A DNA stretch of 39,366 nucleotides from an uncultured Halieaceae bacterium (GTDB taxonomy: Bacteria; Pseudomonadota; Gammaproteobacteria; Pseudomonadales; Halieaceae): positions 1-39,366 of the forward strand of contig CAJXNM010000029.1 in the NCBI GenBank assembly GCA_913057135.1, given 5' to 3'. Below the pieces are notes generated by a model. It worked only from the letters and a program-made list of their open reading frames with translations, made no database searches and had not been told where the DNA came from. Numbering within the stretch: the stretch's first letter is position 1; every line of letters begins with the position of its first letter. A program made the translations under genes and the position numbers. Below are positions 2,504 through 20,679 of this stretch, piece by piece.

Positions 2504-5500
2504 GAAAGTCCCGTGAGCGCACCTTAAGTTCGGCCAGTGCATGGCTATGGTCATACAGCGCGCCGGCTATAACGTGCATTACCCCGTCTCGGCTCTCGAG
2601 GGTGCCCTTAACCAGTAGTAATTGGGCAGTCATGAGGGCGTCGCGAAAATGGTCCTGCACCTTCGGCCAGACCACCACATTATGGTTGCCGGTCTCGTCT
2701 TCGAGGGTTAGAAAAATAACCCCCGAGGCGGTGCCCGGCCGCTGACGACAGGTGACTAGGCCAGCAATCCGAACGAATCGGTTACTGCCAAGGGCGTGTA
2801 ATTCAGTTTGGCGTCGACACTGATTGAACGGTGCGGTGTGTCGCAGTAGAGCCAGTGGATGTTCCCTTAAGGTGACCCCTGTGCTTTGGTAATCGGCTAA
2901 TACGTTATCAACCGTGGTCGGTGCTTGAATACGGTTCGCCTCATTGGCATCAGGTGTGGGTTGTTCGGTGGGTAATAGCGGCCGCTCGGGTTCTAAAGCC
3001 ATGACTTGCCACTGGCTTTGATGGCGGTGACCGCTAAGGCTGGCCAGCGCATCTGCCGCCGCTAAGGTTTCTAAGTCTTGTCGTTGCAGGGCAGCCCGTC
3101 GGCGCAAATCGGCAATACTGTGAAATAGCTGGTGCTCACGCGCCGCCACAATGCGCTGAGCGGTTGCTTGGCTTAAACCCCGGACCAATCGAAAACCCAA
3201 GCGAATGGGCGGCTGTCCTTGATTGGCTTGTGGCAGTAATTGGTGGTCCCAGTGGCTTTGTTGTACGTCAATTGGCAGTATCGTAATGCCGTGTCGCCGG
3301 GCGTCTTGTAGCAGCTGGGAGGGGCTGTAAAACCCCATGGGCTGGCTATTGAGTAGGCCCACATAAAACGCCGCAGTGTGATGGCATTTGAGCCACGCCG
3401 ATACATAGGCTAACAGCGCAAAGCTTGCAGAGTGGGACTCGGGAAAGCCGTAACCTCCAAAGCCTTTAATTTGATCGAACAGGCGCTCGGCAAAACCTGG
3501 GCTGTAACCCCGTTCAAGCATGCCCTGTTTCAACTTGTGCTCAAACGTTAACAGCTTGCTGTCCTTGCCCCAGTTGGTAATGGCGCGTCGCAGAGCATCG
3601 GCTTCACCGCCGCTAAAACCCGCGGCGACCATCGCGAGTCGAATGACTTGCTCTTGGAAGATGGGCACCCCTAAGGTGCGCTCAAGGACCGAGCGGATGG
3701 CATCATTCGGGTAGCTGATGGGTTCGAGTCCGTGTTTGCGTCGCAAGTACGGGTGCACCATGTCTCCTTGAATAGGCCCTGGCCGCACAATGGCAATCTC
3801 AATAACGAGATCATAAAAGGAGGCGGGTTTTAGGCGTGGCAGCATCGACATTTGCGCCCGTGATTCAATTTGAAAGACTCCCATGGCATCGGCTTTTTGC
3901 AGCATTCGATAGGTGGCGGGATCTTCCCGGGGAATGCTTTGCAGTGTGTTGAGATGGGGCTGGTCGCGCTGCACCAGTGCCAGCGTTTTACGAATAGCCG
4001 ACAGCATGCCCAGCGCCAGCACATCCACTTTCAACAGACCCAGCGCCTCGATATCGTTTTTATCCCACTGGATGACCGTTCGATCGGGCATGCTGGCGTT
4101 TTCTATGGGGACCATATTCGATAGTGGTCCGCGGCTAATCACGAAGCCGCCCACGTGCTGAGACAAATGTCGCGGAAACCCCAACAGTGTTTGTACCAAG
4201 GTCAGAAACAGTTGTGCCTGATGCCCAGGCATACCGATGCCCTGCTGCTCAAAACGCTGCTGCAGCTCTCGCTCCCGATTCCACCAGGCCAGGGATTGCG
4301 CTAAGTCTTCGACAATAACCGGATCGAACCCCAGGGCTTTACCCACATCGCGTACGGCACTGCGCGAGCGATAGGTAATAACCGTGGCCGCCAGTGCCGC
4401 ACGGCGTCGACCGTATTTCTGGTAGATATACTGAATGACCTCTTCCCGCCGTTCATGCTCGAAGTCCACATCAATATCGGGGGGTTCATCCCGCTCCCTT
4501 GAGATGAAACGCTCGAATAGCAGGGAGATTTGCTCGGGGTTCACTTCGGTGATGTGTAGGCAGTAGCACACCACGGAATTGGCGGCTGAGCCTCGGCCCT
4601 GGCATAAAATGCCGCGCTCGCGGGCAAAGCGCACCACATCGTAGACGGTTAGAAAATAATACTCGTAGCGTAGCTCGGTAATGAGATCGAGCTCGGTGTG
4701 AATACGGGTTTCAATAGCCGTGGGTACACCCTGCGGCCAACGTTGAGCCGCGCCTCTGGCGACCTGCTGGCGCAGATAACTGTTGGCGTCATAGCCCTCG
4801 GGGATAACCTCTTCCGGGTACTCATAGCGCAGTTCGTCAAGACTGAACTGGCACTGCTGGGCAATACGCAGGGTCTCGCTGGTGAGCGACGGTGGATAGA
4901 GGGGCAGTAGCTTATTCAGTCGTCGCAGATGTTGTTGGCTATTGGCTAGTCGTCGTTGCCCCAGGCGCTCGACGGTGGTGCGATGACGCAACGCGGTTAA
5001 CACGTCGTGCAGTGGCTTGCGGCTAGCACAGTGCATTTGCACGTCGCCACAGGCCACCATAGGTAAGTTAAGGGACTGGGCTAATTGCCAGCGCTGTCGA
5101 AAGCGTCGCAGCTCGTCATTACCCAGAAGCCGCGATATACCCACCCAAACCCGGCCTTTACACAAGCGTGCTAGTTGCTGACCGTAGCCGATTTGCTGCT
5201 CATCATCGCTTGGCAGCCAAATGATGAGGCAACGCTTTAGGTGAAAGGCAATATCGGGTAAGCGGGTGGTGTATTCCCCTTTGGCGCTGCGCCGCCGAGA
5301 TCGGCTAATAAGCCCCGATAACTCCCCGTAAGCGGCCCGATTGGGCGCTAGGGCAATAAGCCGTAAGCCTTCGCTGAGGTTAAATTCGCTGCCAACAATG
5401 AGCTTGAGTTGGTGTTCTTTAGCCGCCACATGTGCTTTGACGACACCCGCTAAGGAGCATTCGTCGGTAATGGCGAGTGCGCTATAGCGGCACTCGGCGG

Positions 5501-16777: not shown

Positions 16778-17518
16778 TTAGCAGACCGGAGCTAAATGGC
16801 GTTGTTGTATAGGTAGCGTGTGGGGTTGTGGTAATTCCCATAGCTGCGGCTGTTCGGGGTAGTCATCTTCACTGTTAAGGGTGATGTGGCGGATGGGTTG
16901 TCCGCCCCGTTGCTTGAGAATATCGACGGTTCGATAACCGCTGATAGCCAGACGCAAGCTAGCTGGTGTATGGCTGTCGGCGGCGCTATTAGCTCGAAAT
17001 AACAGTGCCAAGGTATCACTGTCGGCGGCGGCAATTTGCAGTTTACGTAGTTCTGCGTAGCGATAGTCAGTGGCACCTAGCCAGCTAAAAACGGCGCTGC
17101 AGGTTGTGCTGCGCAAAGCCTGTTCGGTTGCCCAAAGCAACTCTTCTTTGTTCTTAGGGTGTACCATGAGTACCTGTTGTATATCGATGCCGCGAGCCGC
17201 AAGCAAGGGTGCGTAGGGCGTTTGAGGGGGCGCAATGAATACCTGCCAACGCTTCTGTTCGCTGAGCTTTTCCATGGCGGGTAGGAACAGTCCCATGGAG
17301 CCCATACCACAGCCATCGCTAAGCACTTCGATGCTGCCTCGTAGCGGCCAACCCTTGAAGGTAAGTTGCTCATCTAATGGATTGAAACCCGTGGGGAGTG
17401 CATCGACACCGTGCCAATCGCTGTTAGCGGAGGTTGGTAATAGTGTCCTGCTATAAGGTGCATCGAAGCCGCGCCAGGTATCTGGACGATTGATAATGTG
17501 TGCCAGTGGGTCACTCAT
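16778..17518 (-). CDS. imuA: ImuA, SOS mutagenesis accessory protein
   Basis: A 246-residue RecA/SulA-like protein that works with ImuB and DnaE2 in damage-induced mutagenesis. The N-terminal half has the typical ALPTGFNPLDEQLTFKGWPLRGSIEVLS. The Walker A position is degenerate (GCGMGSMG), as in other gammaproteobacterial ImuA proteins. AAGGAG precedes the ATG at 17518, and a LexA box lies 67 bp further up. In most genomes imuB follows at once; here the next gene downstream is OsmC and imuB lies 7.7 kb away. Residues about 18-60 are duplicated at 19293-19420. Confidence 0.92.
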   Translation of the reverse strand: MSDPLAHIINRPDTWRGFDAPYSRTLLPTSANSDWHGVDALPTGFNPLDEQLTFKGWPLRGSIEVLSDGCGMGSMGLFLPAMEKLSEQKRWQVFIAPPQTPYAPLLAARGIDIQQVLMVHPKNKEELLWATEQALRSTTCSAVFSWLGATDYRYAELRKLQIAAADSDTLALLFRANSAADSHTPASLRLAISGYRTVDILKQRGGQPIRHITLNSEDDYPEQPQLWELPQPHTLPIQQRHLAPVC

Positions 17519-17582
17519 ACTGTGCTCCTTATGCTTGTATGTCATGTCCTGTGTTTGATGCGCCGACTGCGCCCAGCAAAAG

Positions 17583-17625
17583 TACTGTATGAATAAACAG
17601 TAGTTGTCTGGCGCCCACAAAGCAA
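17583..17625 (-). promoter_or_regulatory. imuA SOS promoter with LexA box
   Basis: CTGTATGAATAAACAG (17585-17600) is a LexA box with flanking TA/TA. On the minus strand TTGCTT (17625-17620) and TACTGT (17602-17597) are 17 bp apart. This is the same arrangement as at dnaE2, with the -10 inside the operator. The -35 lies in the 63-bp direct repeat. Confidence 0.9.
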
Positions 17626-17674
17626 GAGGTTATTTTTTGGAGAGTCGTCAAAAGCGACAGGTGCGTCGATCGGC
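17612..17674 (+). repeat. 63-bp direct repeat, left copy
   Basis: Identical base for base to 19425-19487. It carries the imuA -35 element on one strand, and on the other the AGAGG and TTG start of the MFS transporter with its first 12 codons. The copies are 1813 bp apart. Confidence 0.95.
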
Positions 17675-17714
17675 TTTGACGGTCCTCGTTCCGTCAGTGA
17701 GCGCGCTGCGCTAA
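17637..17714 (+). pseudogene. Truncated 5' end of the MFS transporter gene
   Basis: TTG 17637 begins the same reading frame as the intact MFS gene at 19450 and matches it for about 14 codons. It then runs into unrelated sequence and stops at 17712-17714. A short dyad (TGACGG-N8-CCGTCA, 17677-17696) begins right at the break. It is a remnant, not a functional gene. Confidence 0.8.
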
Positions 17715-17728
17715 TGCATCAGTCACTG
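17677..17728. repeat. Inverted repeats at the junction
   Basis: TGACGG-N8-CCGTCA (17677-17696) overlaps with a second pair CAGTGA (17695-17700) and TCACTG (17723-17728). They start three bases after the 63-bp repeat ends. They may be recombination-site remnants or the terminator of the ATPase transcript. No gene lies in 17715-17814. Confidence 0.4.
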
Positions 17729-17814
17729 GCGTAGGTGTTTGATGATTGGACGGGCCTGTGACTTCTCAATGCGCTGTCGCTCATCTGCGTCCTGAGCTGG
17801 ATTGTCTGAACTGA

Positions 17815-19083
17815 TCAGTTTCTTGGCTGGGCGCCGAGCAACACCCCGAATGGGATCGCAAAAAACGCCATTGAACCTTGTTGAAATGGCAGTATTTCCC
17901 GCCCGTTATATAAAAGGATACCCCGCTCGAAGGCCTTGCCGGCAAATTCCGCCAGAGTTGCGAGACCCTTGAAGTCTCTAGGGCTCACGCTGGCAGACGC
18001 TTTAACCTCAATGCCTATTATTTTTGAATTGCTGCGCTCCAGAACAAGGTCGACCTCGCGCTTGCGCTTGTCCCTGAAGTGGAAAATTCCCACTTCCTCC
18101 TGGGACCATGCCGAGTGCTTACAGATTTCCGTGTGGACCAGACTTTCCAGCAAACCCCCGTAGTACTGGCTGCTGAGTACTTGTTCTTCGTTGCGTAAGC
18201 CGAGGAGGTGGCATGCAAGCCCCGTATCCACATAGTGAAGTTTCGGCATCTGAGTGGCTAAACGTTTGGCCCTGTTCTTAATGTAGGCGGGCACTCTGCG
18301 AATAATGAACATGAGTTCAAGAATTTCGATGTAAGTCTTGCTGAGTCTGTCATCCAACTCGAGATCGTTGGCGATATTGGCGTACTTGACTAAGTTGCCA
18401 CTCAGTCCAGCCAGGTAGGGAGCTAAGGCCTGTAGCCTGGAGTGGTAATCACCCCTTGCCGCGTAGAGTGACTCGAAGTCCTTATATAGCCTGCCTTCCA
18501 TATAGGATCGATACCAGATTTGTCTGGCTCGGGTGCTCTTTCCTTGTACTTCCGGGTAGCCGCCGCGCAATACCAGCTGTGCGATGTCTTCCCGTGTTGG
18601 GTGCGCGCCGGAGGCAGAAAAGAAGTCTCCAGTCATCATATAGTCGAGCCAATTCAACGACTGCCCGTCGATTTCATTAATTGACAGCGGTAGGAGTTCC
18701 AGCCTTGCCATATGGCCAGGCAGCGCCTCCTGCGTTCGGGCCGAACGAAAAATGTCAGTAGATCCCGTCAGCAAAAACTTACCCTTTTCACTGGGCTCAA
18801 GTTGATCTGAAGCTTCTTTGATCGCTGGAATGAGAGTGGGGGCATACTGGAACTCATCGATTACTACACGCCTGGAACCCAGTGAGCGGATAAAACCGTG
18901 AGGGTCGTTTTCCACAGATGCCAACGTAGCCTGATCATCCAGCGTGATGTATCCCATGTTCCGATCGTTGGCAATCGCCCGTGATAGCGTGGTTTTGCCT
19001 GATTGTCTGGGCCCAGTCAGATAGACGATGCGAAATTCATCGAGTAGTTCGAGGATGGTTGCTTGCAGCTTTCGTTCGAACAT
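17815..19083 (-). CDS. ATP-binding protein, AAA_14 plus DUF4143
   Basis: A 422-residue ATPase with Walker A GPRQSGKTT at residues 24-32 and Walker B RRVVIDEFQY. The C-terminal DUF4143 domain has a nuclease-like segment (REVDLVLE...GIEVKAS) of the restriction-endonuclease-like fold. The family is widespread, patchily distributed and often mobile; its function is not established. It lies alone between two copies of the imuA/MFS boundary. Upstream are four 22-bp-spaced repeats that may control it. No convincing ribosome site precedes ATG 19083. Confidence 0.88.
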   Translation of the reverse strand: MFERKLQATILELLDEFRIVYLTGPRQSGKTTLSRAIANDRNMGYITLDDQATLASVENDPHGFIRSLGSRRVVIDEFQYAPTLIPAIKEASDQLEPSEKGKFLLTGSTDIFRSARTQEALPGHMARLELLPLSINEIDGQSLNWLDYMMTGDFFSASGAHPTREDIAQLVLRGGYPEVQGKSTRARQIWYRSYMEGRLYKDFESLYAARGDYHSRLQALAPYLAGLSGNLVKYANIANDLELDDRLSKTYIEILELMFIIRRVPAYIKNRAKRLATQMPKLHYVDTGLACHLLGLRNEEQVLSSQYYGGLLESLVHTEICKHSAWSQEEVGIFHFRDKRKREVDLVLERSNSKIIGIEVKASASVSPRDFKGLATLAEFAGKAFERGILLYNGREILPFQQGSMAFFAIPFGVLLGAQPRN

Positions 19084-19167
19084 ACCTGTAGTCTCAATAG
19101 GATATGGTGGATGAACTTGGCTCTATGTGTGAAGGTCGAACAATTCTGCCAAGCTGTGGTTCAAATG

Positions 19168-19249
19168 TTAATGCGAAAAATACCAATTCTTATTGCGAAA
19201 TATACGCTATTTTATTGCACAAAATACATGAGCTTCTCGCGAGAAATAT
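19168..19249. repeat. Array of four 16-bp repeats with exact 22-bp period
   Basis: The copies start at 19168, 19190, 19212 and 19234: TTAATGCGAAAAATAC, TTATTGCGAAATATAC, TTATTGCACAAAATAC and TTCTCGCGAGAAATAT. The first three differ pairwise at two or three positions, and the fourth matches the first at 11 of 16. The fourth includes the perfect palindrome TTCTCGCGAGAA. A 22-bp period puts all sites on one face of the helix. The array lies 85-166 bp upstream of the ATPase start. It could be operators or plasmid-type iterons. Confidence 0.7.
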
Positions 19250-19292
19250 GCGACATTACTTAACGCCAGTCTATGAAGCTGGCAGCCGCCGA

Positions 19293-19420
19293 GTAGCGCC
19301 CAACCCTTGACAGTGAGTTGCTCATCTAATGGATTGAAGCCTGTGGGAAGTGCGCCGGCACTGTGCCAATCGCTGTTGCCGGAAGTTGGTAATATTGTCC
19401 TGTTATAAGGTGCGTCGAAG
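19293..19420 (-). pseudogene. Fragment of imuA (codons ~18-60), diverged duplicate
   Basis: Aligns without gaps to 17341-17468 in the intact imuA, with 17 mismatches in 128 bp by hand count (about 87 per cent). The reading frame is kept, with no stops. The imuA start codon, ribosome site and LexA box are absent: 143 bp present in the left copy (17469-17611) are replaced by 4 bp here. The 3' side breaks off into unrelated sequence at 19292. Confidence 0.88.
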
Positions 19421-19424
19421 CTGC

Positions 19425-19487
19425 CGCCCACAAAGCAAGAGGTTATTTTTTGGAGAGTCGTCAAAAGCGACAGGTGCGTCGATCGGC
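19425..19487 (+). repeat. 63-bp direct repeat, right copy
   Basis: Identical to 17612-17674. It forms the ribosome site and the first codons of the intact MFS transporter. Confidence 0.95.
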
Positions 19488-20679
19488 CTTGGCCGAGCCT
19501 GCGTTTCGTCGTTATTTCCCCGCAAGTTGGTTTTCGAGTCTTGGCTCCTGGATGCTGCGATTTTTGCTGGGATGGAGTGCTTGGGATCTCACAGAATCCG
19601 CAACCTGGGTCGGCCTTGTGGCGGCTCTTATGCTGGCGCCCGCGTTTGTGTTGTCACCGCTATTTGGAATAGTGTCTGATCGCGTTAATCCCCGACATGG
19701 TCTTATCGTCTCAATGGGGGTTCACGCAGGTATTGGTATCGCCGGTACCGTTTTTTTAGTGACCGAGCTGTTTAATTTAAACGTACTGTTATTGCTTGCT
19801 TTTGCCATGGGTGCGGTGACCTCTGGCCATAGCCCTATGCGATTGGCACTCATACCCCTGTTGGTCCAGAGAGACGCCTTACCCAGTGCCGTAGGCTTGT
19901 CGGCGATGACCTTTAATGTGGCGCGTATTATTGGCCCAGCTTTAGGTGCCTGGCTTATCAGTCAGTGGGGGGCGGGCAGTGCCTTTGCCCTATCCGTTGC
20001 CATGTTTACTGGCTCGGCCCTTGTCCTTCTAAGTCTTCGAGGTATTGGTCAGCGTGCACCGAAACCCCGTGAACCGTTTCGGCAGCAGTTGACGGCGGGT
20101 TTGCGATACGCAAGCCAGCACTCGGGTATTCGTTTGCTATTCGCTTTGACGGTTGTGAATGGGTTGTTGGCACGGACAACCATCGAGTTACTTCCGGCTT
20201 TGTCCGGCGCTTTGCTGGGGGGTAAAGCCGATGATCTGGCTGCACTCACTGCCAGTGCCGGGGTGGGTTCCATCCTGGGTGGTTTAATCGTTAGTCGTCA
20301 AAGTGCCGACCTGAGTCGTCTATTACATATGGTCATGATGGCCATTGGCTCGGCCACCTTACTCATGATGAGCCTACACTGGATGCAGGATCTGTGGCGT
20401 TTGGGTGGGCTGGTGGCTCTACTGGCCATGTGCGCCACCATGGCGGGTACCGGTTGTCAGACCATGACACAGCTATCTGTCGAGGAGGACTTCCGCGGGC
20501 GGGTTATAAGCCTGTGGACGCTGCTTGCCATGGGTGCACCCGCGCTGGGTTCTGCGCTATTTGGGCATTTATCCGATCAATTAGGGTTTGTCGTGGTACT
20601 GGCCTCGGCAGCGGGTGTAGGCTTGGCCGCTGTGATGGTGTTTTACTTGCGTCGTAGCGCATTACTGGGGCGCACCTGA
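19450..20679 (+). CDS. MFS transporter (enterobactin-exporter-like, MFS_3)
   Basis: A 409-residue major facilitator with about 12 hydrophobic segments, beginning with the N-terminal RRSALAEPAFRRYFPASWFSSLGSWM typical of the MFS_3 branch. That branch includes siderophore and drug exporters of the inner membrane. The start is TTG at 19450, with AGAGG about 8 bp upstream. The gene's first 14 codons occur again at 17637. Its C-terminal 37 bp overlap the convergent holA end. The promoter was probably shared with imuA before the rearrangement; the present copy lacks the LexA box. The substrate is unknown. Confidence 0.85.
   Translation: MESRQKRQVRRSALAEPAFRRYFPASWFSSLGSWMLRFLLGWSAWDLTESATWVGLVAALMLAPAFVLSPLFGIVSDRVNPRHGLIVSMGVHAGIGIAGTVFLVTELFNLNVLLLLAFAMGAVTSGHSPMRLALIPLLVQRDALPSAVGLSAMTFNVARIIGPALGAWLISQWGAGSAFALSVAMFTGSALVLLSLRGIGQRAPKPREPFRQQLTAGLRYASQHSGIRLLFALTVVNGLLARTTIELLPALSGALLGGKADDLAALTASAGVGSILGGLIVSRQSADLSRLLHMVMMAIGSATLLMMSLHWMQDLWRLGGLVALLAMCATMAGTGCQTMTQLSVEEDFRGRVISLWTLLAMGAPALGSALFGHLSDQLGFVVVLASAAGVGLAAVMVFYLRRSALLGRT

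Follow-up and report, generated by a model that had tools for sequence, protein, structure and literature searches.

The DNA considered here, which we call the window, is a whole stretch of 39,366 nt from an uncultured Halieaceae bacterium (GCA_913057135.1, contig CAJXNM010000029.1). An ATPase gene with AAA_14 and DUF4143 domains sits in it between imuA and a gene for an MFS transporter, and DNA of the imuA/MFS boundary is present on both sides of this gene. We argue, with somewhat better than even confidence, that the ATPase gene and the repeat array in its leader form a candidate one-gene mobile unit, which on insertion can leave its target duplicated. The features of the locus are collected in Table 1.

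Table 1. Features at the imuA/MFS boundary, in window coordinates
Feature	Coordinates	Strand	Basis
imuA (SulA/ImuA-like), whole copy	16778..17518	-	Pfam SulA 1.8e-8; matches in 34/36 other same-genus genomes
Left copy of duplicated target: imuA 5' part, intergenic DNA, MFS 5' end	17333..17678		
Presumed LexA-like box between imuA and MFS, left copy only	17583..17602		Seen in 8/8 aligned relatives
Inserted unit of 1606 bp, bounded by both target copies	17679..19284	-	Edges set by repeats; absent from 29/29 same-genus loci
AAA_14 - winged helix - PD-(D/E)XK (DUF4143) ATPase, 422 aa (predicted domains)	17815..19083	-	Pfam, PADLOC, AlphaFold2
Array of four units in 22-bp phase, ahead of the ATPase gene	19161..19248	-	
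Right copy of duplicated target, without ~139 bp (17473-17611)	19285..19491		
MFS transporter, whole	19450..20679	+	Pfam MFS_3 6.1e-44

An earlier reading made from the letters alone (the sequence-only reading) had described a perfect 63-bp repeat and a diverged imuA repeat around the ATPase gene, and both are present as described. One direct repeat pair (17333-17472 / 19285-19424) covers 140 bp of imuA and is 85% identical. The other (17608-17678 / 19421-19491) covers 71 bp at 97% and contains the identical 63-bp core (17612-17674 / 19425-19487). Blast reports the first as 129 bp with 86.8% identity (E 1e-31) and the second as 63 bp with 100% (E 1e-30). The repeat coordinates also bear out the asymmetry of the two sides that had been described. 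Left of the unit are the whole imuA and a 5' fragment of the MFS gene. On the right a fragment of imuA is fused directly to the MFS 5' end, and the whole MFS gene follows. The DNA missing from the right copy, a loss that the sequence-only reading does not mention, holds the imuA start codon, intergenic DNA and what we take to be a LexA box. Since only this internal piece is lacking, the blocks are two copies of one stretch of ~342 bp, the right one having lost part of its interior. The ATPase is the only substantial ORF between the two copies. An Rfam scan of the window found no family at gathering score.

Relatives show what this boundary looks like without the unit. We sought imuA in the bacterium's own genome and 57 others, and there are matches in 49 of the 58, its own included. 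Thirty imuA loci were supplied, one of which is the window's own, and five further same-genus genomes with an imuA match are outside the other 29. imuA and the MFS gene are direct neighbours with no unit between them in all 29 of these same-genus loci (L009 ends at a contig edge inside the MFS gene). This is the uninterrupted boundary that the sequence-only reading had proposed to look for. The ATPase has a match at E 0.001 in 0 of the 36 other same-genus genomes, many of which are incomplete, and in 6 of the 58 genomes overall, again counting its own. That reading took the locus to be the relic of a single-crossover integration. The relic of an insertion stands, given the empty boundary in 29/29 loci, but the crossover is not favoured since the same scar recurs at unrelated targets (16 of the 105 loci examined below).

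The two copies also carry a record of what happened after they arose. Their imuA parts differ at 21 positions, and the majority of eight outgroups assigns 9 changes to the left branch (whole imuA) and 10 to the right (the fragment), with 2 ties. Third codon positions account for 6 of the 9 changes on the left and 3 of the 10 on the right (p 0.18). Sites that are invariant in all eight outgroups were hit by 5 of the 10 right changes and 0 of the 9 left ones (p 0.03, from small numbers). The right copy changed without visible constraint and the left mostly at third positions. The copies therefore seem to have diverged once the duplication was there, with the right imuA fragment decaying where it lies. 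The polarised changes, few as they are, disfavour the import of a working imuA from a related strain, which the sequence-only reading had offered as the cause of the divergence. The 63-bp block without a difference adjoins the 140-bp block that has all 21.

The scar is not confined to this locus. From 122 homologue loci 105 are usable, having at least 400 bp on both sides, and 17 were dropped for shorter flanks. L037-L044 hold short or partial homologues and were dropped before the 105 count; L041-L044 never entered the repeat test, and L040 has a 38-bp repeat at E 2e-6 that is outside the count. Repeats were called with blastn at E 1e-6. A repeat is termed hugging when its upstream copy ends <300 bp before the start and its downstream copy begins <400 bp after the stop, and these limits were set after the first 53 loci had been inspected. 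A direct repeat spans the gene in 21 of the 105 loci and hugs it in 16. There are 2 repeats, 1 of them hugging, in 320 control windows from 20 gene-carrying genomes (p 1e-9). The 106 control genes taken from the same stretches give 1 repeat and no hugging one (Fisher p 7.6e-6). These controls, together with the blast E-values above, rule out chance as the source of the window's repeats. A later second sample of 20 loci, 19 of them usable, has 3 hugging repeats and no control of its own.

The repeats vary in length from about 30 to 400 bp, and the targets are unrelated to each other. Target gene names (tatC, queA, lptE, Zn-ribbon-like) are our readings of translations. L056 has 272 bp of the tatC 3' end in duplicate (92%), with the whole tatC upstream and a remnant that runs downstream from the ATPase stop. 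L177 repeats 54 bp near the queA 3' end (98%). At L077 the leuS-lptE junction is duplicated over ~371 bp including the lptE start, and the whole lptE is downstream. L245 repeats 62 bp (89%) from the start of a small Zn-ribbon-like ORF, and the whole copy of that ORF begins at the ATPase stop. L070 likewise has a duplicated ORF start and a whole ORF copy downstream. A whole or nearly whole target gene is left at each of these five loci. The lptE site also has an empty counterpart, as G332, G333 and G342 carry the leuS-lptE junction once with no ATPase there; in G335 and G345 different DNA separates leuS from lptE. Empty sites were sought for L177 and L070 too, where relatives are absent or too distant.

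The leader of the gene has its own signature. The 22-bp array noted in the sequence-only reading is present upstream of the ATPase as four units. Tandem Repeats Finder gives 2.9 copies of the 22-bp unit, a pattern matched three, and the fourth was read by eye between them. We then took the best self-match lag over the 130 bp before the gene in other leaders (152 given, 149 usable). It is 21-23 bp in 74 of the 149 homologue leaders and in 17 of 139 control stretches. The lag follows the similarity of the proteins to that of the window: 18/20 at ≥50% identity (window included), 39/51 at 33-50%, and 17/78 at <33%. Taken at ≥33% identity it is found in 57 of 71 leaders, the window again among them. 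By eye, the repeated word varies by subfamily, and the leaders of distant homologues are of different types, some of them palindromic. Subfamily-specific words would fit a model in which every protein recognises an array of its own. The bacterium has a second AAA_14-DUF4143 gene, 36% identical (L002, G000:C7:23550-24782); its leader is 22-bp-phased with a different word, and no repeats flank it.

On plasmids, the gene and its leader recur as a sharply bounded piece in varied surroundings. The Agrobacterium plasmid copies L226 and L227 are 99.0% identical over 1509 bp, from -218 to +39 relative to the gene, and nothing further is common to them on the same strand at E 1e-3. Two Thermus plasmid copies, L222 and L223, are 95.0% identical over 1319 bp (-53 to +45), with nothing further at E 1e-20, and the Rhizobium plasmid copies L225 and L230 are 88.4% identical over 1502 bp. 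Among the matches listed, the Rhizobiaceae unit keeps common edges on ~20 plasmid records with flanks that differ from those of the query; several of these records are one species and may share a site. T. thermophilus strains differ at one site: in L223, L234 and L235 the unit stands directly before a CRISPR array, with pxpA on its other side, and in L232 and L233 it is missing. The HB27 copy (L222) is at another place, and its 3' edge carries a CRISPR-repeat-like stretch that is broken. IS1634-family transposase genes are downstream of two ATPase units (L222 5732-7360, L099 5765-7480). The left flank of L226 matches L236 and its right flank matches L238, with no ATPase there, which means that the site is rearranged. 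Exact empty sites were also sought for the Agrobacterium and R. etli copies, whose flanks are rearranged. One Agrobacterium copy looks broken: on pAspH13-3a (L241 3014-4007) a partial ATPase is annotated, and its DUF4143 piece (3492-4007) is beside an opposing ORF.

Plasmids were searched for the ATPase, as the sequence-only reading had proposed. Relatives do occur on 394 of 72,556 plasmid records, and all are <60% identical. Carriage by phages was set aside, since a search of 50,697 phage records at E 1e-5 gave matches in only 8. Among genomes there are matches in 59 of 274 class members at E 1e-30 and in 17 of 349 genomes of a phylum sample at 1e-40 (the bacterium's own genome is in both).

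The protein itself is informative. Pfam finds AAA_14 (2e-23) and DUF4143 (6e-40) plus a weak nSTAND3 match, and the PADLOC profile PDC-S01 covers residues 2-416 of 422 (9.8e-135). NCBIfam has no family for it, and a PDB sequence search has no match at E 0.01 or better. An AlphaFold2 model built from 17 sequences has a pLDDT of 89.5 and a pTM of 0.90. Our reading of the model is an AAA+ core, a winged helix (~213-264) and a PD-(D/E)XK core. The predicted PD-(D/E)XK core has a helix at 308-324, strands at 332-338, 343-349 and 355-360, and a helix at 368-384; it is so labelled because of its motif and topology. The closest PDB folds are the archaeal SSO1545 (2fna, E 1.3e-6) and PABY2304 (2qen, E 2.9e-6). 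Cdc6/Orc1 follows, and the hits after it include RuvB and FtsH. Across 41 aligned sequences 21 positions are invariant, including G24, R26, Q27, G29, K30, D76, E77, D345, E359 and K361. Since the Walker A and B residues as well as D345, E359 and K361 are invariant, the predicted ATPase and nuclease sites look intact. We take the gene product to be ATP-driven and probably DNA-cutting.

We propose the following scenario for the window. The ATPase gene and its leader array would have inserted at the imuA/MFS boundary, copying ~342 bp of target, with one copy ending up on each side. Because the target would be copied instead of cut through, imuA remains whole on the left and the MFS gene whole on the right. 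The spare target pieces would decay afterwards. One can imagine the duplication arising during insertion in two ways: nicks far apart on opposite strands could be filled in, or the copy could come from replicative repair. The encoded protein may drive the insertion. Its winged helix would bind the 22-bp-phased array, the AAA+ part would assemble there, and the PD-(D/E)XK domain would cut DNA. What can be read in the DNA is a duplication, single-copy empty sites in relatives, a scar that recurs around homologues of the gene where the targets are unrelated, and units that are nearly identical although their surroundings differ.

It must be noted that a number of observations weigh against this scenario. 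No hugging repeat is present at 89 of the 105 homologue loci, and an identical, fresh target duplication was not found among the loci examined. Within the window the MFS part has 0 differences in 63 positions where the imuA rate predicts ~9 (p 3.6e-5). Our guess is that this perfect block needs gene conversion between the copies, which the sequence-only reading had also suggested, or a second event. Some of the 16 hugging repeats are poor examples. Those at L055 and L124 recur locally, at 4 and 5 places of the respective locus, those at L096 and L150 are weak (73% identical), the one at L138 looks like tRNA 3'-end DNA, and 76 bp of the L077 duplication are a repeat that is dispersed in the genus. 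In the later sample L245 is clean, and the L243 repeat is dispersed, being present three times. L256 was dropped as a fresh 161-bp target duplication. Its repeat (1225-1494 / 2778-2979 on the ATPase strand, 97%) includes the unit's own leader and runs into a second leader copy past the gene. Either unit and flank were duplicated in tandem at L256, or a second copy has left its remains there. All controls were taken from 20 genomes of a Gammaproteobacteria sample; the homologues are a more mixed set that extends to other phyla and to plasmids. One control gene does have a repeat, though not a hugging one. The plasmid copies L222-L228, L230 and L231, which are outside the 105, have no flank repeats at E 1e-3, and L229, tested with the later sample, has none either. 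At the strain-level site in Thermus thermophilus the unit is beside a CRISPR repeat with no long duplication. The ends of the Agrobacterium and Rhizobium units resemble the T-arm of a tRNA, which brings them closer to the borders of attachment sites. Such T-arm-like stretches are at ~3705-3730 and 5191-5212 of L226 and at the 3' edges of L225, L230, L240 and L242. ARAGORN found no whole tRNA at these borders in 11 loci, and by eye no T-arm-like ends were recognised in the window, L056, L070, L077 or L177.

These difficulties make other explanations worth considering. The unit could be a sessile defence gene that was spread by chance illegitimate recombination during the uptake and repair of foreign DNA, with the duplications as by-products that are not the mark of an element in its own right. 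The many loci without repeats and the heterogeneous borders in Thermus, Agrobacterium and Rhizobium fit this account. PADLOC does list the family as a defence candidate, and in the accessible part of PMC4158269, a survey of archaea, a protein of similar architecture is described as 'likely involved in defense (or some plasmid gene)'. However, the piece that moved is the leader plus the gene, with sharp common edges in the sets compared, and a hugging repeat is much more frequent around these genes than around the controls. We find this account doubtful, if not easily dismissed. A circular molecule is another candidate. If it brought the ATPase together with an imuA-5'/MFS-5' segment of a related strain, a single recombination with the chromosome would yield exactly the geometry observed, with direct target repeats at both ends. 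ATPase relatives do occur on plasmids, and in several contexts the Agrobacterium units are bounded on either side by a short direct repeat, the pattern expected of a circle that shares one homologous segment with its target. Yet the donor must already hold the unit at each target, be it imuA/MFS, lptE, tatC or queA, and the 36 other same-genus genomes searched have no ATPase match at E 0.001. There are no plasmid functions between the repeats either, and the right imuA fragment seems to be the product of decay in place. A circle from a near-identical donor is possible; the single crossover as such we consider unlikely.

Lastly, the unit could be a passenger that is moved in trans, by an IS1634-type transposase or by a tyrosine recombinase that uses the tRNA-like ends. 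IS1634 and IS1549 give direct repeats of 8-514 bp according to the accessible text of PMC2266710, IS1634-family transposases are encoded near L222 and L099, and the T-arm-like ends of the Agrobacterium and Rhizobium units would suit a recombinase. However, no transposase or integrase gene is inside the window's unit. The sequence-only reading had named terminal inverted repeats at the ATPase ends as the mark of a different kind of mobile border. No clear ones are present in the 14 units compared, where the best 20-nt end-to-end match is 9-13/20, a figure with no shuffled control. The passenger explanation is improbable in our view. A one-gene mobile unit that can duplicate its target is the reading we retain.

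A broader proposal can be made more tentatively, and we would not bet on it. AAA_14-DUF4143 (PDC-S01) genes may be an undescribed class of self-moving one-gene DNA elements that recognise their own 22-bp-phased leader array, cut with PD-(D/E)XK, insert beside or within genes and copy tens to hundreds of bp of a target gene that survives. One insertion route may not cover the whole PDC-S01 family, and a host or defence role alongside mobility is possible. If the proposal is true, a family that is counted as phage defence in tens of thousands of copies is also, or instead, a mobile element with an insertion chemistry as yet undescribed. The fourth commonest prokaryotic 'defence candidate' would be at least partly a selfish element, and defence censuses that rely on 'guilt by embedding' would need correcting. 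The long variable target duplications known from IS1634 and IS1549 would gain a second, unrelated enzyme system for testing. Copying a target instead of breaking it would also be an unusually gentle strategy of insertion.

How does the unit compare with known systems? We take COG1373 to be equivalent to AAA_14 plus DUF4143. Nineteen COG1373 genes are among the horizontally shared genes in the part of PMC10782964 that is accessible, and DUF4143 is mentioned in that of PMC4406477. The portions available of PMC5296598 and PMC5426353 treat other elements. A literature search, with most subscription papers outside its coverage, returned no account in the texts available of a PDC-S01-type gene as a mobile unit with target duplications. 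The closest likeness in insertion is to IS1634 and IS1549, whose target repeats are also long and variable (8-514 bp, versus about 30-400 bp here), and the accessible part of PMC2266710 has no mechanistic model for them as of its writing. However, members of that family are DDE transposases with terminal inverted repeats (see also PMC2266710), and the unit in the window shows neither. It also differs from a site-specific integrative element in that there is no integrase within it. SSO1545 and PABY2304 are the best fold matches, yet they are only 16% identical with a TM of 0.42-0.51. arCOG03166, the 'AAA+ superfamily ATPase fused to HTH and RecB nuclease domains' of archaeal dark-matter islands, has the same domain order by its description in PMC4158269. 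The account, in its available part, gives no borders or duplications. The clearest match is to PDC-S01 itself, as the window protein has the near full-length profile and both Pfam domains above cut-off. According to the accessible part of PMC12988326 there are 9,986 archaeal and 29,494 bacterial PDC-S01 systems, and it is reported there as the fourth commonest defence across all prokaryotes. It is treated there as a defence candidate; the leader array, the apparent mobility of the unit and the target duplications are features seen here.

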